Positions 17,627 to 34,231 of a DNA stretch of 64,000 nt are shown here, piece by piece (position 1 is the stretch's first letter; the number at the start of each line of letters is the position of its first letter). The notes beneath the pieces were generated by a model. That model was not told the origin of the DNA and ran no database searches. It worked only from the letters and a program-made list of their open reading frames with translations. Position numbers and translations under genes: made by a program. The DNA comes from Sphingobacteriaceae bacterium. Lineage in GTDB: Bacteria; Bacteroidota; Bacteroidia; B-17B0; Aurantibacillaceae. The stretch is taken from assembly GCA_002319075.1 (NCBI GenBank), contig NVQB01000001.1, positions 5,580,001-5,644,000 on the forward strand, given 5' to 3'.

Positions 17627-20600
17627 CTATCGCACTAATGTAATGGTTCCGCTGGTATTAAAATCCTTACCATCAGAGCCTTTCGCGGTTATAATATAAG
17701 TAAATACCCCCTCTGAAGCATCTTTACCTGATGGATTCTTTCCATCCCATTCAATGTTGCCGGTGCTGCTATCAAGCGTATACACCTTATGTCCCCAACG
17801 GTCAAAAATCGTAATGGAGATTTTTGTAAGATTTGTTGCTTTTACGAAGAAGATGTCATTTACTCCATCATTGTTTGGCGAAAAGATATTTGGTATTTTG
17901 AGTTCGGAAGGAATTTCAACATTTACCACTTTGCGTACCGTATCAAGACAAGCTCCTTTTGTAACAAACATGGTTATAGTGTAAGTACCAGGCGCGTTAA
18001 AAACAGTTTCTGGTGAAACTCCAACAGAGCTGGTAGTCTGAGTGGTTCCGTTACCAAAATTCCAGTAAGAACTAATGTTGGCGTTACCTGTTGTGGATGA
18101 GGAATTGTTGTTAAAAACCACGCTTAAAGGAGCGGTACCACTAGTTGGTTGTGGCATAAAATCGGCGGTTAACTCGCCATCTACTACATCCACAAAGGCC
18201 ACACTGGCGCAACCATTCAGTTTATTTACTACATCCACCTGGTATCTTCCGGGAATAACTGCATTAAAAGTGGAACTGTTAGTAGGTCCATTAAAAGGTC
18301 CTGGAGGGGTCCACAAATAATCATATTGCGTAGTGTTTGCATCGCCGTAAATCGGTTTAATTACCAGCGATTTAGAACCGCAGTCTAAAACATAAGGATC
18401 TGGAGCCTTAGGCTTATTTAATTCCGGATATACGCGAAAGTCAACAACTGTTTTTGTACCTGTTGCTAAACAACCATTATTTAAGTCTTTTACCGTCACT
18501 GTATAAACGCCCGGAACTCCTGCCACATAAGTGGTACTAACCTGTAGAGGCTTTTGAGGCGTTGGTCCCTCCCATAAAAGGGCTATTGCTGGCAGAGGAT
18601 GCGGATAAACCGGCGGTATGGTGGAATTGCTACCATTGGTTAGTATAAGCGTTGGGGTAACACAAGTTACCTGGTTACCGCCATTAATCACAGCATTTGG
18701 TTTAAATAAGTTCTGTAACATAGGAACTACCGTTGTTGTTTTACAGGTATTATTCTCATCTGTTACTGTAAGCGTATAGTTGGCAATTACCGTACTGGTG
18801 GTTGCTAAAGAGTTGGATAAAACGGTGATTGTGTTGCTAGCCAGGTTGCCGGGATTGCCCGGAAAAGACCAAAGATAACTCACATTTGTATTTAAACTTT
18901 GTCCTTCAAGCACTACACTTGGTGTGTTGCAATCGAGAATAAGTTGTGGTACCACTGCTGTAGCCTGTGGCCCCAGGGTATTTTGAAGGACAGATATCTG
19001 AACACGTGTCTCGCAGAAATTGGTATTGTCTTTTGTGATCACCGTCCATGTACCCGGAACCGCGACACTGTAGGTAGCATTGGTACTTAAAGAACCTGAA
19101 GGTACAGTTGTGGATGTTGGTGGACCTAATAAGGTGTAGGAAACAGGGCCGCCAGGTGTAGGCGTTGTGCTTGCATTTAGGATATTAATAGTAGCCACAC
19201 TTTTTGAACCGCAACCCAGTGTAAAGTTTTGTGGACTACTTAAAGTATAGGTTGGAAAACCAGAAGAAGATGCCACTGTAAATGTTTTACAACTGCTACA
19301 TCCATTTGCATCATTAATTAAACAATGCGTATAGATTCCCGGGCCTCCTGGAAAAAAAGTTGTGGAATATCCGCTTGCAGATAGTGTTGCACCCTGCGGT
19401 GCAATCCAGGCATGCGAAATATTTACAGAAGGATTACCATAAGCCGTAACCGTTATAACCGAAGTAACAGAACAGGTGATGTTTTGAAACAAAGGAGTAA
19501 CCGTTGATGAGGGTGCAAAAGTATTTGTATTGATCACAAAGGTTTTTGTACTCACGCAACCAGACGCAGGATTTAACGCAATAACCGTCCAAGTACCAAA
19601 AGAGTTGGTGGGACTAAACACAGCACCCGGCCCATAGAATGGCGCAGACGAGCCATTTGAACTTGTATAGCTGATAGCAGTTGATGGCGTATAGATAACT
19701 TCTAAAGTAGGATTAAGACAAGTGATCAGGTAATTGCCTCCCGGAGGGCTAATATTGAACACCGGAGGTACCGGAATTGTATTAATAGTAAACACCGTTG
19801 CTGCTGAACATCCCCAGTCGGTTGTAACATTGGCGCTATAAACACCAGGAGCAATGCCCCCTGTGGCTGAAGTTTGTGTATTGCTGTTAATCCCATTTGG
19901 TAAGGGAGTCCAACTAACTGTATAACTCGGTACAGGTGAAGCGGGACTCCAGGTAAGATGTAGGTCAAATGCGTTGACTGTACTTGTACACCCACTTTGA
20001 GTAAGGGTTGGAGCTACAAATGGTTGCGGAAAAACCGAAACGGTGGCTACAACGCTGTTTGTTACACTAACATTTCCCTGGTTAGTGCCTGTAATAAATA
20101 ACGTGTATATCGAAGTAGAAGTGGGTGATACCGTATAAATTCCAGTGCTACTGGTATTATTTCCCGGTTGCATCGAATAACTCACCCCTGTTAAACTTGT
20201 TGAATTGGGTATACTTAAAGTAACACTTTGACCTGAGCAAATAATAAAATCCTGAGGCATGCTAAAAAAACAAGGACTCGTGGCGGTAGCACAAGCTGAA
20301 GTATTGCTTGCCGCATATGTCCCCACAAAACCACTTCCCGAAACATACAGGAGCTTATTTGGTTTATCAAGCTTGATATCAAACACATATTTATTGGTGC
20401 TTGTAACCCCTAAAGAAATGGGAGTAAGCGTACTAAATGTGGTGCCGTTAAAATTATAACATACAATAGAACCATTGCCTCCAAGGTATAAATTGTTGCA
20501 ATCATCTACTGCAATACCGCCCTGCTCCAACAAAGTCTGAGTAGGAACAGTAGTGTTGGCCACCTGTGCACCGGTAGTTTTATTATAAGAAGCCAGGTGA

Positions 20601-22108
20601 ATTCCATCATAATAAAATAAATAGTTTCCATTCACTGCAAGCGAGTTATACCCATTCGAGCTAAGTCCGGGTCCGCCTACATATTGGGTTTTATTTTGTT
20701 GTTCCCCCAGTACAGTAAAACCGCTGGGCTGTGTCCATAAATTTCCGTTGAAGGTTGTATTTACAGCGCAGATCTTGTCAGTTAAAGTACTACCGGCATA
20801 ATTCACAAATATATTTCCATTATTATCAATGGCATGAGAAACTACATCCTGAGCGATAGTTGTATTGGTTGGCTGAAAAGTAGTAAGGGCAATCACAGCG
20901 GTAGTTGGATTAATAGTTACAGCCGAAATATTCGAAGAGGTTCCTCCGCCTAATACGAAAACTTCCCCGGTAGTGCAATGGAAGCCCATATCCCACACTT
21001 CCTCAAACTGATTATTAGCGGTGTTCATAAAGTTATCGTAGTTACCTGAGGCATCAAGACGAATTACTTCATTTCCGGTGCCCACATATCCCTGACCGAT
21101 GTAAGTTTTAGCGTTAAATTTATTCACAGCAAAATTACTCGCTTGTGAAATAATAGGTGCGCTGCTCCAGGCCGGTGTTGTTACCGTTCCTGCAAAAGTC
21201 CACACGAGTACACCTGTTGTACTGTAGCGAGCCACTTTAAAGGGATTGTATCCTCCGTATATATAGGTATTTCCATTAAAATCATAATCCACATCATAGG
21301 CATAATTATTACTGGTAAGAGTTGTTGCCGACCCTACCCATGGATCAATAATTAATAGTTTATCATGCGAAAAATTATCCGGAAAGCTAAAGCCCACTAT
21401 ATCATTGCGTAAAGTAAAAGCAGAGGCTACCGGCGTTTTATCTTCGTAAAAACTTTTTGGAGCATATTCTTTTATATCCCATAATGAAGTCTGGATAACA
21501 ATATTTCCTTCGGCGTCTTTTTTAATTCTGGAAACATCGCCTGTATAGGCGAGTTTAATTTGAGCAGGATCTGCACCAGGACGAACAATCACGTTATATT
21601 TTATACCATGATCTTTATCTTCTGGGATAGTATATTCAATATCAATGTTATTGTAAACATTTTTATAAGTGATTTTTTTATAGGTGGAAGAGTTGTATTG
21701 CGCCTGGCCGTAAGTGAAATAATGCATTTGCTTTTCGCTTCTTTCCACTACAAGATCCTTATTGGCATTCAACCAGTTCATATTTATATAATGGAGCTCA
21801 GGCTGTTTATGAGTGCTGTGTTTGCCTTTTTCAATTTCTTCCCGCTGACGTTCAGTTAACGGAAAAATTTTGCTCATCACGTACACAAGTCCCTTTTCTG
21901 TAAAATAGATCTTTTCCAGGCCATTCTCTAAAACGAAATGCACCTTTTCTTTTGAAGGCAAAAGATTATCATACTGACCGCGGTTTTCTACGAAGACCCG
22001 GGTTCCAAAAGGATCCGCAGAACTTATAAATTTCGGTGCAGGACCTCCGAATAAAGCTGTTGGGATCGCAATTGCAGCAATCAGTAGATAAAATAGATTT
22101 TTTTTCAT
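17627..22108 (-). CDS. Giant T9SS type B sorting-domain cargo protein (copy 2)
   Basis: A second 1493-residue protein with the same domain order as copy 1: signal peptide, DUF7948-like N-terminal domain, propeller-like part, Ig-like modules, PKD domain and type B C-terminal sorting domain. Identity with copy 1 is uneven. The last ~100 residues and a block around residues 850-1150 are nearly identical even at third codon positions, whereas the propeller part and residues 1190-1390 differ much more. This pattern suggests tandem duplication with later gene conversion. The two have their own terminators, so they are probably separate transcripts. Confidence 0.88.
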   Translation of the reverse strand: MKKNLFYLLIAAIAIPTALFGGPAPKFISSADPFGTRVFVENRGQYDNLLPSKEKVHFVLENGLEKIYFTEKGLVYVMSKIFPLTERQREEIEKGKHSTHKQPELHYINMNWLNANKDLVVERSEKQMHYFTYGQAQYNSSTYKKITYKNVYNNIDIEYTIPEDKDHGIKYNVIVRPGADPAQIKLAYTGDVSRIKKDAEGNIVIQTSLWDIKEYAPKSFYEDKTPVASAFTLRNDIVGFSFPDNFSHDKLLIIDPWVGSATTLTSNNYAYDVDYDFNGNTYIYGGYNPFKVARYSTTGVLVWTFAGTVTTPAWSSAPIISQASNFAVNKFNAKTYIGQGYVGTGNEVIRLDASGNYDNFMNTANNQFEEVWDMGFHCTTGEVFVLGGGTSSNISAVTINPTTAVIALTTFQPTNTTIAQDVVSHAIDNNGNIFVNYAGSTLTDKICAVNTTFNGNLWTQPSGFTVLGEQQNKTQYVGGPGLSSNGYNSLAVNGNYLFYYDGIHLASYNKTTGAQVANTTVPTQTLLEQGGIAVDDCNNLYLGGNGSIVCYNFNGTTFSTLTPISLGVTSTNKYVFDIKLDKPNKLLYVSGSGFVGTYAASNTSACATATSPCFFSMPQDFIICSGQSVTLSIPNSTSLTGVSYSMQPGNNTSSTGIYTVSPTSTSIYTLFITGTNQGNVSVTNSVVATVSVFPQPFVAPTLTQSGCTSTVNAFDLHLTWSPASPVPSYTVSWTPLPNGINSNTQTSATGGIAPGVYSANVTTDWGCSAATVFTINTIPVPPVFNISPPGGNYLITCLNPTLEVIYTPSTAISYTSSNGSSAPFYGPGAVFSPTNSFGTWTVIALNPASGCVSTKTFVINTNTFAPSSTVTPLFQNITCSVTSVITVTAYGNPSVNISHAWIAPQGATLSASGYSTTFFPGGPGIYTHCLINDANGCSSCKTFTVASSSGFPTYTLSSPQNFTLGCGSKSVATINILNASTTPTPGGPVSYTLLGPPTSTTVPSGSLSTNATYSVAVPGTWTVITKDNTNFCETRVQISVLQNTLGPQATAVVPQLILDCNTPSVVLEGQSLNTNVSYLWSFPGNPGNLASNTITVLSNSLATTSTVIANYTLTVTDENNTCKTTTVVPMLQNLFKPNAVINGGNQVTCVTPTLILTNGSNSTIPPVYPHPLPAIALLWEGPTPQKPLQVSTTYVAGVPGVYTVTVKDLNNGCLATGTKTVVDFRVYPELNKPKAPDPYVLDCGSKSLVIKPIYGDANTTQYDYLWTPPGPFNGPTNSSTFNAVIPGRYQVDVVNKLNGCASVAFVDVVDGELTADFMPQPTSGTAPLSVVFNNNSSSTTGNANISSYWNFGNGTTQTTSSVGVSPETVFNAPGTYTITMFVTKGACLDTVRKVVNVEIPSELKIPNIFSPNNDGVNDIFFVKATNLTKISITIFDRWGHKVYTLDSSTGNIEWDGKNPSGKDASEGVFTYIITAKGSDGKDFNTSGTITLVR

Positions 22109-24195: not shown

Positions 24196-24300
24196 GCAAA
24201 AATGAAAAGTTTAAATTACGCTTTTTGGCAATTATTAAGAAAAGCATTTGGTATCTTTTATTTTTACTTATTAGCAAAACCGTTATATTCGTTGGCTCTA

Positions 24301-25011
24301 ATGGGCAAAAACTTAGTCATAATTCCAACTTACAACGAGATTGAAAACATCGATAAAATGGTACGCACCGTTTTTTCTTTGACCCGTGAGTTTGAATTAC
24401 TGATTGTGGATGATGGCTCACCAGATGGTACGGCCAATCATGTAAAATCTCTTCAGAATGAGTTTGCCGGAAAACTGCACATAGAAGAACGTAAAGGAAA
24501 GTTAGGCCTGGGAACAGCCTATATTCATGGCTTTAAATGGGCCCTTGCAAGAGATTACGCTTTTATTTTTGAAATGGATTGTGACTTTAGCCACGACCCG
24601 AAAGATCTTGTCAGACTTTTGGAAGCCTGCGAAAAAGACGCGGATGTTGCTGTAGGCTCGCGTTATACAAAAGGCGGAAAAGTAAGTAACTGGCCTATTG
24701 GACGGATTTTGATGAGTTATTTCGCTTCTGTTTATGTGAGGATGGTTTTGTGGATTCCTGTGAAGGACACTACAGCGGGGTTTAAATGTTACCGTAGAAA
24801 AGTCCTTGAAACCATAGCTTTAGACGAAATAAAATTTATGGGCTACGCCTTCCAGATCGAAATGAAATACAGGGCTTACCGTAAAGGTTTTAAAATTGTA
24901 GAAGTGCCGATCCTATTTACAGACCGCGTTCTTGGTGTGAGTAAAATGAGCACTAAAATTTTTAAAGAGGCTTTTCTTGGTGTTTTGCAAATGCGCTTTG
25001 CTAAGTATTAG
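24301..25011 (+). CDS. Polyprenol monophosphomannose synthase (DPM1-like GT2 glycosyltransferase)
   Basis: A 236-residue family-2 glycosyltransferase resembling dolichol-phosphate mannose synthase: it would move mannose from GDP-mannose to a polyprenyl phosphate. Signatures are VIIPTYNEIENI, LIVDDGSPDGT, EMDCDFSHDP (metal-binding DxD-like) and VGSRY. I chose the ATG at 24301, since family proteins begin just before the VIIPTYNE strand; the frame is open for 33 codons more, up to 24202, but these are hydrophobic and not conserved in the family. There is no C-terminal membrane domain, as in the soluble DPM1 form. Confidence 0.85.
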   Translation: MGKNLVIIPTYNEIENIDKMVRTVFSLTREFELLIVDDGSPDGTANHVKSLQNEFAGKLHIEERKGKLGLGTAYIHGFKWALARDYAFIFEMDCDFSHDPKDLVRLLEACEKDADVAVGSRYTKGGKVSNWPIGRILMSYFASVYVRMVLWIPVKDTTAGFKCYRRKVLETIALDEIKFMGYAFQIEMKYRAYRKGFKIVEVPILFTDRVLGVSKMSTKIFKEAFLGVLQMRFAKY

Positions 25012-25022
25012 TTTAGGGTTTT

Positions 25023-25594
25023 TCTCGACTACGCTCGAAATGACAGTCAATGATCTCGACTACGCTCGATCTGACATTCGACTACGCACAAGCTGGCCTT
25101 AACATCCACTGGATGTTAATCCTGCTCGATCTGACAGTCTGCTATGCACAAGCTGGCCTTAACATCCACTGGATGTTAATCCTGCTCGATCTGACAGTCA
25201 ATGATCTCGACTACGCTCGATCTGACATTCGGGTATGCTCGATGTGACAGTCGGGTATGCTCGATGTGACAGTCAATGATCTCGACTGCGCTCGATCTGA
25301 CATGCTGCTATGCACAAGCTGGCCTTAACATCCACTGGATGTTAATCCTGCTCGATGTGACAGTCAATGATCTCGACTACGCTCGATCTGACAGTCGGGT
25401 ACGCTCGATCTGACAGTCGGGTATGCTCGATCTGACATTCGACTAGGCTCGATCTGACATGCTGCTATGCACAAGCTGGCCTTAACATCCACTGGATGTT
25501 AATCCTGCTCGATCTGACAGTCAATGATCTCGACTACGCTCGATCTGACAGTCGGGTATGCTCGATGTGACATTCAACCACGCTCGAAATGACT
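25023..25594. repeat. Palindromic minisatellite array
   Basis: A 570-bp block made almost wholly of short variants of TCGACTACGCTCGATCTGACAG (about 22 bp) interleaved with four perfect 45-bp copies at 25086-25130, 25146-25190, 25312-25356 and 25469-25513. Each 45-bp copy contains the palindrome TAACATCCACTGGATGTTA. The outermost units read CGCTCGAAATGAC, which resembles a dispersed intergenic repeat frequent in Bacteroidota, while the inner units have changed to GATCTGAC or GATGTGAC. It lies between convergent genes and has no spacer structure, so it is not a CRISPR array. Confidence 0.9.
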
Positions 25595-25601
25595 TGACAT
25601 T

Positions 25602-25874
25602 TTATCGCTTGATTTCAAAAGTCTGATAGCCTTTCAACTCCTGCTCTTCCGAATCCACTTCCGTTACATCGGCCAGACGCGGCCCCACATTACACCACTC
25701 TATAAATTTGTGAATGCCTTCCTCCTCGCCTTCCACATGAATTAAAACACTTTCGTCAAATTGATTTCTTACAAAGCCTGTGAGATCAAACTTATGTGCT
25801 GCTGCCTGTGCATTGTAGCGATAACCAACGCCCTGCACTTTGCCTTTTACAACGATTTTATAACTGCGGATCAT
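25602..25874 (-). CDS. Acylphosphatase
   Basis: A complete 90-residue acylphosphatase, which hydrolyses the carboxyl-phosphate bond of acylphosphates. Signatures: GKVQGVGYR with the catalytic arginine R19, and GFVRN with the catalytic asparagine N37. Its ATG is 8 bp from the stop of the PorE-like gene, so it is the last gene of the T9SS cargo operon, although a functional link is not evident. Confidence 0.92.
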   Translation of the reverse strand: MIRSYKIVVKGKVQGVGYRYNAQAAAHKFDLTGFVRNQFDESVLIHVEGEEEGIHKFIEWCNVGPRLADVTEVDSEEQELKGYQTFEIKR

Positions 25875-28000: not shown

Positions 28001-28996
28001 CTAGAGGCGTGGACAGTTTTTAATTTCAGTACTTTTTGTTTTCTTTCCTAACCAGGTAAGCGATAACTCGTAAGCACCGCGTGTTTTAGAAACTCCTCTT
28101 AAAGTGGAAACATTAAAGTCGTAAGACATTTTAAAAATATAATTGTCTTTCTTTAAACCCACATAAAAAATACTCGCGTCTTTTACACGCATGGTGTATC
28201 CCGCCAGTGCATAAAATTTTTCTCCTTTAAAATAATAACCGGCATCCAAAGCATAAGTCTGTTGAATAATGCTCGCCTGGCCATAAATTAATACTTTAGG
28301 AATCACATAAAGGATTTCACTCACATTTACCCGCACCCCGGCATGAAGGTATTGACGGATAGGCAAGCGGTTGTTGGAGCCCACAAATGACTCTTTGGGA
28401 CGTGTTAAATTAAAGGCACTGTAACCTATGAAAGGATTGAGACGCGACTGTTGTTTTCCATAAAAATAAAGTGCGCCAAAATTCACAGCCTCCTGGAATT
28501 GATTATTACCCGTAAAGTTTTCACCGCTGGAAACCGATTTATCAAAAGAACCGCCGTTGGCCGTAGACCATTGAGAATCGAAAGAAAGTACCTGGTACTC
28601 GATACGTTTTTGTGTGAAGCCAGCCTGCAATCCAAAAGATAAGTTGTGGTATTTATTTTTATCTATAGGTACCGCGTAAGAAGCAGAACCTAAAAGTTGA
28701 AGTACATTATAATTTCCGGCACCTGCGCGCATGTTCGAAATCTGTCCGCCAAAACCCCACTTCCCTTTCGGTACATCAAAGCTTGCAAGGGCAGTTGTGT
28801 ATGGTTTATAGGCTAATGCATTCCACTGATTACGGAAATGAATATGCGCACGCATTTTTGTTTCTATCAATCCCGTCATAGCCGGATTTAAAAAGATAGG
28901 CGCTGCGTCATACATGCTCAGGTGAAAATCCTGCGCTTTGTTGGACAGTATAGACCCTGTACACAAAATGATTAAATATAATTTTATTCTTTTCAT
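28001..28996 (-). CDS. PorP/SprF-family T9SS outer membrane protein (second of operon)
   Basis: A 331-residue outer-membrane barrel protein of the PorP/SprF family. The N-terminal HLSMYDAAPIFLNPAMTG after the signal peptide is the family hallmark (the NPA-G motif), followed by HIHFRNQWNAL. In Flavobacterium SprF-like proteins are needed for secretion or surface attachment of the type B cargo encoded next to them. Its ATG overlaps the stop of the 1321-residue cargo gene by one base, so the pair is very likely cognate. Confidence 0.9.
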   Translation of the reverse strand: MKRIKLYLIILCTGSILSNKAQDFHLSMYDAAPIFLNPAMTGLIETKMRAHIHFRNQWNALAYKPYTTALASFDVPKGKWGFGGQISNMRAGAGNYNVLQLLGSASYAVPIDKNKYHNLSFGLQAGFTQKRIEYQVLSFDSQWSTANGGSFDKSVSSGENFTGNNQFQEAVNFGALYFYGKQQSRLNPFIGYSAFNLTRPKESFVGSNNRLPIRQYLHAGVRVNVSEILYVIPKVLIYGQASIIQQTYALDAGYYFKGEKFYALAGYTMRVKDASIFYVGLKKDNYIFKMSYDFNVSTLRGVSKTRGAYELSLTWLGKKTKSTEIKNCPRL

Positions 28997-31900
28997 TATC
29001 TGATCAGGGTTACATCACCGTTCTTTTTTACCTGCCGGTTATTGTACATGTCTACCACCATTGTCCATACATAAACACCAACAGGTTGTTCTACCCCATT
29101 TTTTCTACCATCCCAGCCAAGAGTTTGATCACTTGTTTCGAAAACCAATTCACCCCAACTGTTGTAAACTCTAAATAACATGGAAGCAAAAGGTCCACCT
29201 TTTATATACAAAAGATCATTTACGCCATCACCGTTCGGCGTGAAGCCTCCTGGTAATTGTGGTAAGAGGGTCACATCAATGTCTTTACGCAAAGTATCCT
29301 GGCAGCCCGCGAAGTCGGTAACCGTTAGTTTAATACTGAAAATACCCGCTTGTTGATAGGTATGCACTGGCGCTTGTTCGGTAGAAGCACCTTCGTCTCC
29401 AAACTCCCAGTACCATTGAGCTATGTTACCAGCAGGGGTTGTAAAGTCTGAGAAATAAACTGGCTCCTGAACAACAGATGGATTATTTGTTAAACCGAAT
29501 TCTGCTTTTGGTTTCGAAAACACATCCACATATTCACGGTGAGGTTCCGAAACACATCCGATACTGCGCGAGGCGCCCACCGGTGTGGCAGTAACCGTTA
29601 GAAAGGCAGAGAACCGTTCAGGCGAAGTGTAGACGTGACCTACTGTAGTAGTTGGAAAGCTGGTGTATAAAGGAGGGGCATTGAATTGAATACTGTCTCC
29701 AAACTCCCATTTCCAGGCAATGATTGGATCTGAACCTGGAGGTGCAAGCGACTGATTTGTAAACACTACCTGGAAATCCTGGCAAGCCGGAGCCACGCGG
29801 AAATCAGCTATGGGTAGTGTTTTAATACGGATCAATGTATCAAATACATCACTGCACTCAATGTTCAAAAGACTTTGTCCTGTTACCGTGAGTGTAACCA
29901 AATACTGTTGGGCTATGCTGTAAGTCTTAACGGGATTCGGTGTGGAAGAACCTCCTAAAGAATTGTTATCTCCAAAATCCCAATTGTATTTTAAGAAAGC
30001 TGTACCGTTAGCTAAAGAAGCGTCGGTAAAAATTAAAGGTGCATTCAAACAACGTTTTGGTGAAAAGGTAAACCTGGCCGTAGGTGAGGGTACAAATGTG
30101 GCCGTGAAAGCTGCAGAAGAACCCGGACATTGGCCATTGTTTGTAGATTTTAAAGTAAGTGTTACAAATCCATTTTGAATATCTGTTTCACTTGGCTGAT
30201 AAAAGGAATTAACGAAATTGGCACCGGGTGTAAAAGTTCCCGGACTGGATGTGGCGCTGCTCGTGCTCCACTCCCCTGAATTGGTGTAACCAGAAACAGT
30301 TCCTGTTAAAGCTATTTGTGCATTTTTACAAGAAGGAGAAATTAAATCGTTTACCCTCACTATCGGAGCAGCCAATATCGAAGCTTTCACAGAATCTTTC
30401 GCCACAGGACAAATTCCTCCTGAGCTTTCTAAAATAAAATAAACAAAATTTGTATCAAGCGGACTTAAGCTGTAGGTGGTGTTAATTGGAGAAACCTGCG
30501 GTTGCAGATCAGAAAACGCACCGTTGGTCATATTGGAGGTCCAGAGACCTTGCGTTGCCGTACCCGAAACAGTTCCGCTTAAAGAGGTCGTTAAAGATTC
30601 GGCACAGACCGTAAAGTCTGAAGGCACACTTAAGGTTGGCTTAGGCAGCACATTTATAAGCATGGTTGCCGTTTCAGCAGCACAGATGCCATTAATAGTG
30701 GAACTTAAAGTAAGTGTTATGGTATTTTGAGAAAGATCAGCCGGACTCAAAATGTAAGTCGCAGTAGGAGAAGCATTGGTAAGCGTGTAGGCTCCTGTAC
30801 CACCCTGCCATATCCCTGAAGTGGTTACACCGCTGATATTACCATTAAGGGCTATGGTGCTGGAATTTGTACAAACATTTGCTATGCTGGGCGTAATAAT
30901 AACAAGCGGTGGATTTATAAAACCAACAGTTAGACTTTGCACTGTATTCGGACAACCCTGCAACGGCGCCTGACTCGTAAGATTTAACGTGATAGAATTT
31001 GCTGCAAGGTCTTGTTGAGAAGGCGTGTAAGATGTTACTACTCCCGTTCCAAAAGTACCACCGTTTCCTCCACTCCACTGGCCGCTTACCGCATTGGTTA
31101 CGGTACCAGACAGAGCTACAGGTACAACATTGTTTTTACACATGATGGTACTTCCTGTAACTAAAACTTTGGGACGTTGGTTGATGACTAGCTTAACGGA
31201 GTCTGTAACAGACTTGCAACTTCCGAGTGAATTAAGATATAAGGTTATAGTTCTCGTAGGAACAGAGAACGTTGTATCGTTTACTGATACAGTGTAAATA
31301 GCGGAAACGGTATTAAGTGAAGAGCTATAAGATGAAAGGGGGGGAAATGTGCCACTACCTCCGCCGTTAATTGTAACACTACCACTAGTATAACTTGTAC
31401 TCCAGTAACCAGCAATATCCGCTCCACTAACGGTTCCCGTTAAGGCGACTGTACCAGCTTGCCCGGCACAAATGGGAGTTGTGGTCTGAGTTTTAACCTG
31501 GGTTCTTCGGAGAAATGATGACATGTAGTGAAAGAGCGTTCCTCCATTCGTTGTGCCATTAAAGACGCCCATAGCAAAAAATCCATTTGAACCGGTAGAA
31601 TTATATAGCAGATTGGAAGAATTTACCGGAATTTGCGATGTACTGAATGGCCCTAACTGAGCACCATAATATGGTCCTCCCTGGAGAGTTGATGTTACCG
31701 GAATTACTGTAAATAAACTGGCGGAAATCGCAATAGTATTAGAACTGTTTACAAGAGTAAAATTAGAAATAGCTGCTGCTTTGCACAACACATTTAGAAA
31801 AAAGGTGTTCCCATTATTCCTTGTAAATGTAACACTGTCAGACCCAGCACAGTTCAATGGAGGTAAAATTGCTTCTCCTAATTCACAACCATATCCGGAA

Positions 31901-32961
31901 GCACTTAACAAATAAACATTTTTATCTGACCTGGCATAGGTAAGGTTGTTATCCATATTATGCGTGTAGGTATCGCCTTTATTAAGAAGAACAGTAGTAG
32001 TTACTGCCCCGACAATTTCAACCTTCGTAAAATTCTGAGTAGCTACTACAAAAAACGCTTCCCCCGACCCTGCATTTAATTGTCCCCGGTTAATGATATA
32101 ATCTGTGCCAACCAGATCAACGGGTACGATCTGATCTCCCATTAAGTCATAACAGCCTTGTCCCGTAGGATTAACAGAGTCGTCTGAAACAGTAACAGCA
32201 ATGGGTTTATCTGATACCACGATACTTCCACTAAGATTCTGCCCCGATACATTTGTTATCTGGGTAACATTTTCGGCTGTGTAACATGCACCTTCACGGG
32301 GGAGAAAAACACTAAAACTGACATTTGCCAGGTGGCCAACGATATCGCACTTTGGGGTAATCCAAACGATGGTGTTAGGCTTGGTAGCAATAATACTAAT
32401 CATCGATTTAGGTTGTGTGAAAATCCCATCTCCGTTTTGATCCTGGTTACCGCCGGCGGGAGATAAAAATCGATTATTCCATTTTGTTTGGAATGGACAT
32501 AAAAATTCAGTTCCTAAAGCGTTTTGCCCCTTAAGTGAATAGGTTTCAGGATTATTGGGTGTGATAGTTATTTCATCATATACTACCGTGATTTTTGAAC
32601 TGGAGGTTATCTTTACTCCGTTTGTTCTTACCACATTTGCAGGACGCGTCTCTAGAGAATCATATCCTAAACTTGTAGGACTTGCCAATGCTCCCCTCCA
32701 ATAAGTAATGTCAACGAGTTGTGCTGGGGTCATGTAAATTATAGTATCCATCGATAATGGAGAGGCCGGCTGAAAAATATGTACTGTGGTTACAGGTGCG
32801 GAAAAACTTGAAATATGGAACTTGATCGGTTGCTTTGGATTATGATCTGGAGTTACCCATGGCGGAGCAAAATAAAAGAGCGTATCAATCTGCGCAACCG
32901 AAATACCAGTTTTGAACACAAAAAATAAAAAGAGTACTATGATCTTATTTTTATTATTCAT
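28996..32961 (-). CDS. Giant T9SS type B cargo protein with IgGFc-binding-like N-terminal domain and PKD repeats
   Basis: A 1321-residue surface protein. I chose ATG 32961, which gives a normal signal peptide (MNNKNKIIVLFLFFVFKTG) and begins one base after the upstream stop. Residues about 30-420 resemble the IgGFc-binding-protein N-terminal domain (conserved YSLKGQNALGTEF, VSDKPIAVTV, YLLSASGYGCELG). Serial Ig-like modules follow, then three PKD domains (YNWDFGDN, WKWEFGDS, WYWEFGDE), then the type B sorting domain (PGGFTPNGDGVNDLLY). A putative adhesin, exported by T9SS and attached with its adjacent SprF-like partners. Confidence 0.88.
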   Translation of the reverse strand: MNNKNKIIVLFLFFVFKTGISVAQIDTLFYFAPPWVTPDHNPKQPIKFHISSFSAPVTTVHIFQPASPLSMDTIIYMTPAQLVDITYWRGALASPTSLGYDSLETRPANVVRTNGVKITSSSKITVVYDEITITPNNPETYSLKGQNALGTEFLCPFQTKWNNRFLSPAGGNQDQNGDGIFTQPKSMISIIATKPNTIVWITPKCDIVGHLANVSFSVFLPREGACYTAENVTQITNVSGQNLSGSIVVSDKPIAVTVSDDSVNPTGQGCYDLMGDQIVPVDLVGTDYIINRGQLNAGSGEAFFVVATQNFTKVEIVGAVTTTVLLNKGDTYTHNMDNNLTYARSDKNVYLLSASGYGCELGEAILPPLNCAGSDSVTFTRNNGNTFFLNVLCKAAAISNFTLVNSSNTIAISASLFTVIPVTSTLQGGPYYGAQLGPFSTSQIPVNSSNLLYNSTGSNGFFAMGVFNGTTNGGTLFHYMSSFLRRTQVKTQTTTPICAGQAGTVALTGTVSGADIAGYWSTSYTSGSVTINGGGSGTFPPLSSYSSSLNTVSAIYTVSVNDTTFSVPTRTITLYLNSLGSCKSVTDSVKLVINQRPKVLVTGSTIMCKNNVVPVALSGTVTNAVSGQWSGGNGGTFGTGVVTSYTPSQQDLAANSITLNLTSQAPLQGCPNTVQSLTVGFINPPLVIITPSIANVCTNSSTIALNGNISGVTTSGIWQGGTGAYTLTNASPTATYILSPADLSQNTITLTLSSTINGICAAETATMLINVLPKPTLSVPSDFTVCAESLTTSLSGTVSGTATQGLWTSNMTNGAFSDLQPQVSPINTTYSLSPLDTNFVYFILESSGGICPVAKDSVKASILAAPIVRVNDLISPSCKNAQIALTGTVSGYTNSGEWSTSSATSSPGTFTPGANFVNSFYQPSETDIQNGFVTLTLKSTNNGQCPGSSAAFTATFVPSPTARFTFSPKRCLNAPLIFTDASLANGTAFLKYNWDFGDNNSLGGSSTPNPVKTYSIAQQYLVTLTVTGQSLLNIECSDVFDTLIRIKTLPIADFRVAPACQDFQVVFTNQSLAPPGSDPIIAWKWEFGDSIQFNAPPLYTSFPTTTVGHVYTSPERFSAFLTVTATPVGASRSIGCVSEPHREYVDVFSKPKAEFGLTNNPSVVQEPVYFSDFTTPAGNIAQWYWEFGDEGASTEQAPVHTYQQAGIFSIKLTVTDFAGCQDTLRKDIDVTLLPQLPGGFTPNGDGVNDLLYIKGGPFASMLFRVYNSWGELVFETSDQTLGWDGRKNGVEQPVGVYVWTMVVDMYNNRQVKKNGDVTLIR

Positions 32962-32962
32962 A

Positions 32963-34231
32963 CTAGTTTTTAGGTTCTTCTTTTTTAGGTTCAACTTCTG
33001 GTGTAATTACTGGCTGTGCTGTTTCCACTGCAGGACTAACCGTTTCGACAGGCTTTTGGGGTTCAGTTCCCGAGTTTGTTTCCGGCTGACTGATAGTATT
33101 CGGCGTTTCCAAGTTTGGCGTTTCCGTTTTATTCTCTGAGCCTGGTTGCGTTTCGCCTGGTGGTGTGGAAGGTGTATCAGAAGGCGTAACACCTGGTGTT
33201 TCAACCGGTGTTTCTTTTTTCTCTTCTTCTTGTTTCTTCTCTTCTTCTTTCTTCTTTTTGTTCTTTAAATTTGTTTTTAAAGAGTTATCGATTTTGTTCA
33301 ATTCTTCTTCATCGGCATCTTTCACCAATTCACTCTTCGATTTTTTACGTTTGAAAGGAATCAAATAAGACAAAACAATTTCATGACTTCCACTTGAGTA
33401 TTTGTTTAAAGCAGTTATAGTCATATCATAACTGTATCCAAAACTATACCGCTTATCTATCTTACAACCAAAGAGAAAGCAAGCAGACGAGTTTTGACGG
33501 TAACTAAATCCGCCCCAGAACATCTCATCATAGATAACTTTTGCGTTGTACTCAATCTGGTAGGGTGCCGGACTGGCAGAACGCACTAATACCGATGGCT
33601 GTAAAACCCACTCTTTATTGAAGTGAATACTGTAGCCGGTGTAAGCATAAAAGTGCGTCGTGTTTTTCCCATTGGTATTGTCCCAACGGATTTTAGTTGC
33701 TGGCATTTGCTGATCGCTGAACCCTAAGAAAAAGTTTTTGGTATAAAAATAAAAGCCCGCGTTGGCATCAAAAGACCAGGCTCTTAACACATCATTCGAT
33801 AAAAAATTATCGTCTTTATCGTATGGTCTTGCATCGTAAACACGCACTTTGTATTGAATACCACCGGCACCGAGTCCAAAATTAATAGCTGCTTTTTTAT
33901 TTATTTTTAAATGGTAACTGTAAGTTGCATAAAAAGATGTGCGTTGAAGAAGACCTATTTTCTCCGTCATAATTAAGCCACCGGCCGCCATGTTCGGTTT
34001 CTTTTTAAACTTACCATACCCACTAAACATGTAGCTTTTCGGCGCACCATCAAAGCCTACGTACTGATTTCTGTAACCCAGGTTAAATTGCGTGCCATCT
34101 TCAACACCGGCATACGCAGGATTGTAGATGTACTGGTTCATGAGGTAACTTGTATATAAAGTCTGCTGCTGGGCAAAGGATGCTCCCATGCTCAAAAACA
34201 CTACAAGGCATATATATACTTTAATTTTCAT
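32963..34231 (-). CDS. PorP/SprF-family T9SS outer membrane protein with long charged Pro/Glu/Thr tail
   Basis: A 422-residue protein. Residues 1-290 form a normal PorP/SprF barrel (signal peptide, YLMNQYIYNPAYAG motif, LGYRNQYVGFDGAP). The remaining ~130 residues are an extension not usual in the family: a Lys/Glu-rich stretch (KNKKKKEEEKKQEEEKK) and then Pro/Thr/Glu repeats. The tail may be an unfolded linker on the periplasmic side, but this is inference. It lies 51 bp after the 1166-residue cargo gene and one base before the next cargo gene. Confidence 0.9.
   Translation of the reverse strand: MKIKVYICLVVFLSMGASFAQQQTLYTSYLMNQYIYNPAYAGVEDGTQFNLGYRNQYVGFDGAPKSYMFSGYGKFKKKPNMAAGGLIMTEKIGLLQRTSFYATYSYHLKINKKAAINFGLGAGGIQYKVRVYDARPYDKDDNFLSNDVLRAWSFDANAGFYFYTKNFFLGFSDQQMPATKIRWDNTNGKNTTHFYAYTGYSIHFNKEWVLQPSVLVRSASPAPYQIEYNAKVIYDEMFWGGFSYRQNSSACFLFGCKIDKRYSFGYSYDMTITALNKYSSGSHEIVLSYLIPFKRKKSKSELVKDADEEELNKIDNSLKTNLKNKKKKEEEKKQEEEKKETPVETPGVTPSDTPSTPPGETQPGSENKTETPNLETPNTISQPETNSGTEPQKPVETVSPAVETAQPVITPEVEPKKEEPKN

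Follow-up and report, generated by a model that had tools for sequence, protein, structure and literature searches.

A tandem array of TGTC-tagged, REP-like hairpins with a covarying foot between two convergent genes of a Bacteroidota genome

What is the repetitive DNA that separates two convergent genes in a Bacteroidota genome, and how may it have come to lie there? The question was addressed in a window of 64,000 nucleotides (bases 5,580,001–5,644,000 of a 5.65-Mb genome in two contigs). The gap of 590 bases at 25012–25601 lies between a plus-strand and a minus-strand gene, which makes the flanking genes convergent as originally predicted, and it consists almost entirely of repeats. Both genes are putative, with names taken from reading of the sequence; the nearest named relatives of the glycosyltransferase-like gene come from metagenome-assembled Bacteroidota. 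The array comprises 17 units (one of 34 bp, which includes flank, five of 31, four of 60 and seven of 22 bp; Table 1), which end in TGAC, the internal ones being devoid of the last four bases of the complete element. Tandem Repeats Finder reported periods of 22, 44, 60 and 91 bp and a higher-order period of 166 bp. The form CGCTCGAAATGAC, predicted for the outer units, is indeed kept by the first and last unit only, and the predicted perfect 45-bp sequence is present in exactly four copies in the window (at 25086, 25146, 25312 and 25469), each containing the palindrome TAACATCCACTGGATGTTA with 9-bp arms and one central base. No Rfam match was obtained for window positions 24800–25800 up to an E value of 5. 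Elsewhere in the window, two very long minus-strand ORFs (17627–22108, 1493 aa; 28996–32994, 1332 aa) resemble repeat-rich surface proteins. In the complete genome of the congener G001, the two genes that flank the array have orthologues about 443 kb apart, and therefore the array may sit at a rearrangement junction.

Table 1. Features of the array and its surroundings (window positions unless marked as own genome).
Feature	Position	Strand	Remarks
Whole array, 17 REP-like units	25012–25594	-	TGTC tag reads on minus strand
Higher-order repeat, 166 bp	25124–25572	n/a	2.8 copies, 93% matches
Complete short hairpin, XY=TT, Y'X'=AA	25022–25046	-	tail end of array; 9 bp past the glycosyltransferase-like stop codon
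First of five complete short hairpins, XY=GA, Y'X'=TC	25053–25077	-	each in a 31-bp unit
Other four XY=GA short hairpins	ends at 25228, 25303, 25394, 25551	-	
Long-loop unit 1, 60 bp	25077–25136	-	palindrome 25100–25118
Long-loop unit 2, 60 bp	25137–25196	-	palindrome 25160–25178
Long-loop unit 3, 60 bp	25303–25362	-	palindrome 25326–25344
Long-loop unit 4, 60 bp	25460–25519	-	palindrome 25483–25501
Glycosyltransferase-like gene	24202–25011	+	putative, 269 aa
Acylphosphatase-like gene	25602–25874	-	putative, 90 aa
Stem CAAAAGAGT, examples	own genome 1395154–1395522, 1453052–1453313, 1985254–1985439		

Read with the tag first (on the minus strand here), the complete element is TGTCA-XY-TCGA-GCGNAG-TCGA-GA-Y'X', with a GCGTAG core in the array of the window. 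Its stem has six pairs, two variable ones at the foot and four constant ones, with a two-nucleotide GA bulge and a loop of six nucleotides, GCGNAG. Over 62 distinct elements, tag and core were nearly invariant. The TGTC tag was present in 59 of these 62, which had been collected with GTC as filter, and nearly all of the 147 rows of a listing made without the tag filter carry TGTCA. The four inner pairs never varied in the 62 distinct elements, partly since TCGA was the search pattern. At the foot, pairs of all kinds were found, and 15 of the 16 possible values of XY occurred.

The two sides of the foot vary together. Taking one element per cluster (from 134 elements), XY was Watson-Crick matched to Y'X' in 48 of 51 clusters of the own genome; with Y'X' permuted among clusters, the number matched averaged 8.9 and never exceeded 19 in 10,000 trials. 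Counted as distinct cluster-foot combinations, 61 of 70 were matched. Fourteen other genomes contributed 73 elements, of which 67 had a matched foot. These were read in 40 stretches that were picked among the matches listed by the presence of an element (three by other matches); varied XY and close pairs were somewhat favoured in this choice, made before Y'X' could be seen. For the 62 distinct sequences the covariation score was 0.347, compared to 0.077 for shuffled and at most 0.057 for slid partners; 94.9% of the foot cells were paired, 66 were changed on both sides versus 26 after shuffling, and 6 of 124 were G-T. The base after X' was A in 20, T in 18, C in 7 and G in 6 of 51 clusters, and the positions next to the foot paired no more than expected by chance. 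The short hairpin has little stability (−2.6 kcal/mol for single-stranded DNA) and folds no better than its shuffles (z −0.26), so the pairing may become important when the single strand is stalled or bound by a protein; the long-loop hairpin stands out against its shuffles (z −4.1).

The array was originally assigned to a dispersed Bacteroidota repeat family, and the genome searches agree with this. Of 87 genomes belonging to the GTDB family, 49 contained the exact complete element, as did 35 of the 247 that were sampled from the class. The own genome yielded 84 BLAST matches to the array, 166 matches to the complete 23-mer with at most one mismatch and 70 to the palindrome with at most three mismatches, the backward-read control giving 0 for both of the latter; across the genome searches, 132 exact complete elements were counted. 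At least 64 repeat clusters were found in the 52 own-genome stretches read (about 60 clusters in the 5.65-Mb genome); these stretches were picked among the matches listed (100 of 113 and 100 of 166 in two listings), and at least one further element, at 2386654, lies outside them. Eight random 20-kb stretches of the own genome held a single element between them, which shows that the arrays are islands.

Within an array the foot is homogenised. Unit pairs from the same array shared XY with a probability of 0.868, compared to 0.216 for the pool (250 units from 34 arrays, each having four or more units and a complete element). Such uniformity is what local duplication and exchange would give. Together with the 166-bp period, it bears out one half of the proposal that the array had grown from within, namely local duplication. 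This is only half the story, because a complete founder hairpin with the TT/AA foot adjoins the glycosyltransferase gene, which places the founder at one end. The repetitive nature of the sequence might raise the suspicion of an assembly artefact; given that the main contig measures 5.65 Mb, that the units differ in register and that many arrays have an XY of their own with the complement on the other side, we regard this as scarcely credible.

The 60-bp units are short hairpins with 38 bp, GCAGGATTAACATCCAGTGGATGTTAAGGCCAGCTTGT, inserted in the loop (the 38-bp palindrome). Isolated complete long elements with matching feet exist as well, for example at positions 1947487 and 2009274 of the own genome. 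The perfect identity of the 45-bp copies had been taken as a sign of recent local expansion, a conclusion that was not supported: a 28-mer of the palindrome recurs unchanged at 34 sites, which are spread over 11 loci of the own genome, ten of them other than the one studied here, and palindrome identity is not a local property of the array in the window. The exact 25-mer of the palindrome was found neither in genomes of other GTDB species, by a search that may leave out the own and very near genomes, nor among IMG/VR contigs. Its 21-mer core, with up to three mismatches, matched the own genome 143 times; among the 86 other genomes of the GTDB family, 5 gave one or two matches, which is about the level of the backward control. 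A strictly species-specific palindrome was considered and holds for the exact letters, not for the frame, which is carried by two congeners. In these (G007, contig C23, near 354899; G021, contig C150, near 40633) the ACACAAGCTGGCC-stem-ATCCTGC frame and the TGACA end are present, and three stem positions are changed on both sides in a compensatory manner. A third congener, G017, has a looser relative. In the own genome itself, the loop frame that holds TTAACATCCA can instead hold a second stem, CAAAAGAGT, and some arrays contain both (Table 1). Because the congener stems and the second own stem differ within the same frame, it is the pairing that is kept and not the stem sequence. At the G021 locus, a second, inverted palindrome was seen beside the first, and the acylphosphatase orthologue of G017 has a palindrome in the long-loop frame on its downstream side.

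These data bear on the possibility that the array is a binding site at which the palindrome is recognised by a protein, such as gyrase, a nucleoid protein or a factor in replication or segregation. The near-invariant core over 62 distinct elements and the identical palindrome at 34 sites would suit such a reader, but the unit number and kind differ freely between arrays, the palindrome stem of congeners differs with pairing kept and the own genome has a second stem; we hold protein binding of this kind to be very unlikely. That the number and kind of units turn over freely points to tolerance more than to a fixed task. Protein binding, a transcription barrier and a recombination site had all been proposed as functions, and no evidence for any of them emerged.

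The position of the clusters relative to genes was determined with a home-made gene caller. Of the 64 clusters, 27 lie between convergent and 29 between co-directional genes, 2 between divergent genes and 6 apparently inside a called gene; the background (gaps of at least 100 bp in 224 kb) contained 13 convergent, 40 co-directional and 24 divergent gaps, so defining a deficit of divergent positions (Fisher p 4e-5). Among 63 tail-most elements, 45 have their tail (Y'X') turned towards the 3' end of a gene; head-side distances, being counted from the tail-most element, include the array. In 18 of the 63, a stop codon ends at foot position −1 to +2, against a uniform expectation of 2.0% per element (1, 7, 5 and 5 stops at −1, 0, +1 and +2, respectively, and none from +3 to +22). 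Four further tail-most elements have a stop at +23, where reading frames run into the element and end at the TGA of its TGACA. Among 73 elements of relatives, read in short stretches with frames of at least 70 codons, abutment to a stop codon was not observed.

Could the array be under selection as a two-way barrier at 3' ends, which stops or protects the convergent transcripts or slows terminating ribosomes? It fills the entire convergent gap, element tails cluster at stop codons, and an earlier study cited in PMC12306157 attributes ribosome stalling to E. coli REPs that lie no more than 15 nt from a stop codon. The terminator scan of the array region found no terminator-like site. However, the hairpins are not followed by a U-run, and the scan gave 0 terminators compared to 0.9 for shuffled sequences. 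By eye, several elements come just after an intrinsic-terminator-like stretch or, as at the transaldolase-CBS gene, before one, and because such stretches stand beside them the elements do not replace terminators. Relatives, moreover, have no array at these genes. A selected barrier is in our judgement unlikely.

The stop codons that abut the foot are unusual in kind: TAG 12, TGA 3 and TAA 3 of 18, compared to TAG 18, TGA 8 and TAA 78 in 104 long open frames (p 4.5e-5 for TAG). Three of the five stops at position +2 are TGA, and where the stop lies wholly outside the foot TAG is still over-used (5 of 7). The abutting genes are not truncated, because their family models (TIGR03915 243/243, rSAM_PA0069 348/348, DapB 269/270 and an SDR 253/253) and orthologues end at the same place. 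Every one of the 23 DapB orthologues of the genus that could be read terminates at the same residue (stops TAA 13, TGA 7, TAG 3). For transaldolase-CBS, 24 of 27 orthologues share the final residues, and 24 of the 27 read TAA where the own genome reads TAG; 6 of 29 DapB and 2 of 29 transaldolase-CBS loci were unmatched and dropped, and for a third gene one of five relatives was read.

The coincidence of Y'X' with stop-codon bases at ancestral gene ends invites another explanation, in which XY is a two-base guide or a target copy: a candidate single-strand nuclease would place the hairpin where XY pairs, and Y'X' would be host sequence. This would account for the finding that exactly two pairs vary and that neighbouring positions pair no more than by chance, and pairing of a guide to the cleavage site is known for IS200/IS605 and proposed for TnpA-REP (PMC8266576). 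On the other hand, the share of TGA, 3 of 5 stops at +2 against 8 of 104 background frames, is closer to what the XY types would supply than to what the targets would, and the transaldolase-CBS gene of the own genome has TAG where most orthologues have TAA. XY is also very uneven (GT in 16 of 51 own clusters), and several loci of one relative have tail-to-tail dimers with the same feet, so that XY looks inherited. Owing to the shift in stop codons, a target-copied foot was ranked below a foot carried by the element, and a guide or target copy appears distinctly improbable. The same low standing applies to its wider form, according to which the TGTC-tagged hairpins of Bacteroidia would be inserted by a non-Y1 enzyme where XY pairs with the target, often in or next to a stop codon; if true, they would represent a programmable insertion element of minimal size for which no enzyme is known. 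The TAG excess outside the foot, for its part, is unexplained by a carried foot unless a third base is carried too.

The closest known relatives appear to be the CGTC-tagged REP super-family (Di Nocera et al. 2013, PMC3733652). These have, as here, a short palindrome with an unpaired TGTC tag at one of its ends, an intergenic location between convergent or co-directional genes, Bacteroidetes among the named phyla, and no dedicated transposase; the conv-REPs among them lie mostly beside the 3' ends of flanking ORFs in two charted genomes. CGTC-type REPs have also been described as perhaps extinct. The same paper describes stems of 8–9 bp with complementary A-T at positions 1 and 2, loops of 4–5 nt and a 3-nt CCA-like tail, whereas the elements studied here have free foot pairs and a GA bulge, a loop of 6 nt or the 38-bp palindrome, and no tail consensus. 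CGTC REPs are mostly HH dimers and rarely form clusters (PMC3733652), in contrast to the head-to-tail arrays of the own genome; inverted element pairs are common in relatives, among the matches listed. In one relative, G049, tail-to-tail pairs with similar feet (CG or CA / TT) and diverged spacers occur at three places and resemble REPIN-type mobile pairs. CGTC-tagged clusters interleaved with other repeats, as in neisserial dRS3 and clustered CGTC-1, are similar to the present arrays by description only (PMC3733652).

The GTAG REPs with RAYT (TnpA-REP) share a short, tagged, imperfect hairpin with a bulge (PMC8266576, PMC6006769), and their termini often provide TAG stops to flanking ORFs according to PMC3733652. 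They differ in the tag, which is TGTC here, and in the enzyme: a REP-type transposase was sought as originally suggested, and the PF01797 (Y1/RAYT) profile gave 0 matches in the own genome, on which ground a RAYT was rejected as mobiliser there, and which leaves no element-flanked RAYT (Y1) gene of the kind that makes up a REPtron (REP-RAYT system). PF01797 is present in 57 of 87 family genomes, and 5 of the 87 contain at least 10 elements and no Y1 gene. Y1 and element counts over the 87 genomes correlate weakly (Spearman 0.25, p 0.018), so a Y1 enzyme elsewhere in the family may be the original mobiliser. BrickBuilt of Porphyromonas gingivalis, another repeat of Bacteroidota, is a MITE that encloses a 23-nt minisatellite and occurs 19 times in one genome; its intergenic tandem units of about 23 nt are imperfect and vary between elements (PMC4596501). 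Compared by description, with the unit given as a logo, it differs by leader and tail segments with terminal inverted repeats, and no tagged covarying hairpin is described in the available text (PMC4596501). Neither the variable foot nor these core letters were found described in the literature searched, which mostly lay outside subscription journals.

Overall, we consider it fairly probable that the array belongs to a non-autonomous, CGTC-like REP at gene ends that has expanded tandemly to minisatellites, and that its units are tolerated passengers adding hairpins to 3' ends. A single complete element would settle beside a gene 3' end with its tail toward the gene, where insertion is tolerated. 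It would bring both arms of the foot (XY and Y'X'); on landing in a stop codon, it would complete that stop with its own outer bases (TA^G, T^GA), and the survivors would be the insertions that keep a stop. Tandem duplication, by slippage or unequal exchange, could then multiply the head part on the far side, exchange within the array could keep XY uniform, and the long-loop version with the 38-bp palindrome in its loop may have spread among the arrays of the species. The elements would be passengers without a gene of their own, and, if the 3' flanks of both convergent genes are transcribed, would form hairpins at the mRNA ends.

The genome would then be one with many, locally expanding elements of the CGTC type. 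Two base pairs that alone are free to vary, and that vary together across many genomes of the class, constitute a sharp signature, which tells what an acting factor must require: pairing at the foot, and sequence in the tag and the core. The bias of tails to stop codons and the preference for TAG and TGA would link REP insertion to stop codon choice. Among sequences in IMG/VR, thirteen stretches of putative viral contigs carry one exact complete short element each.
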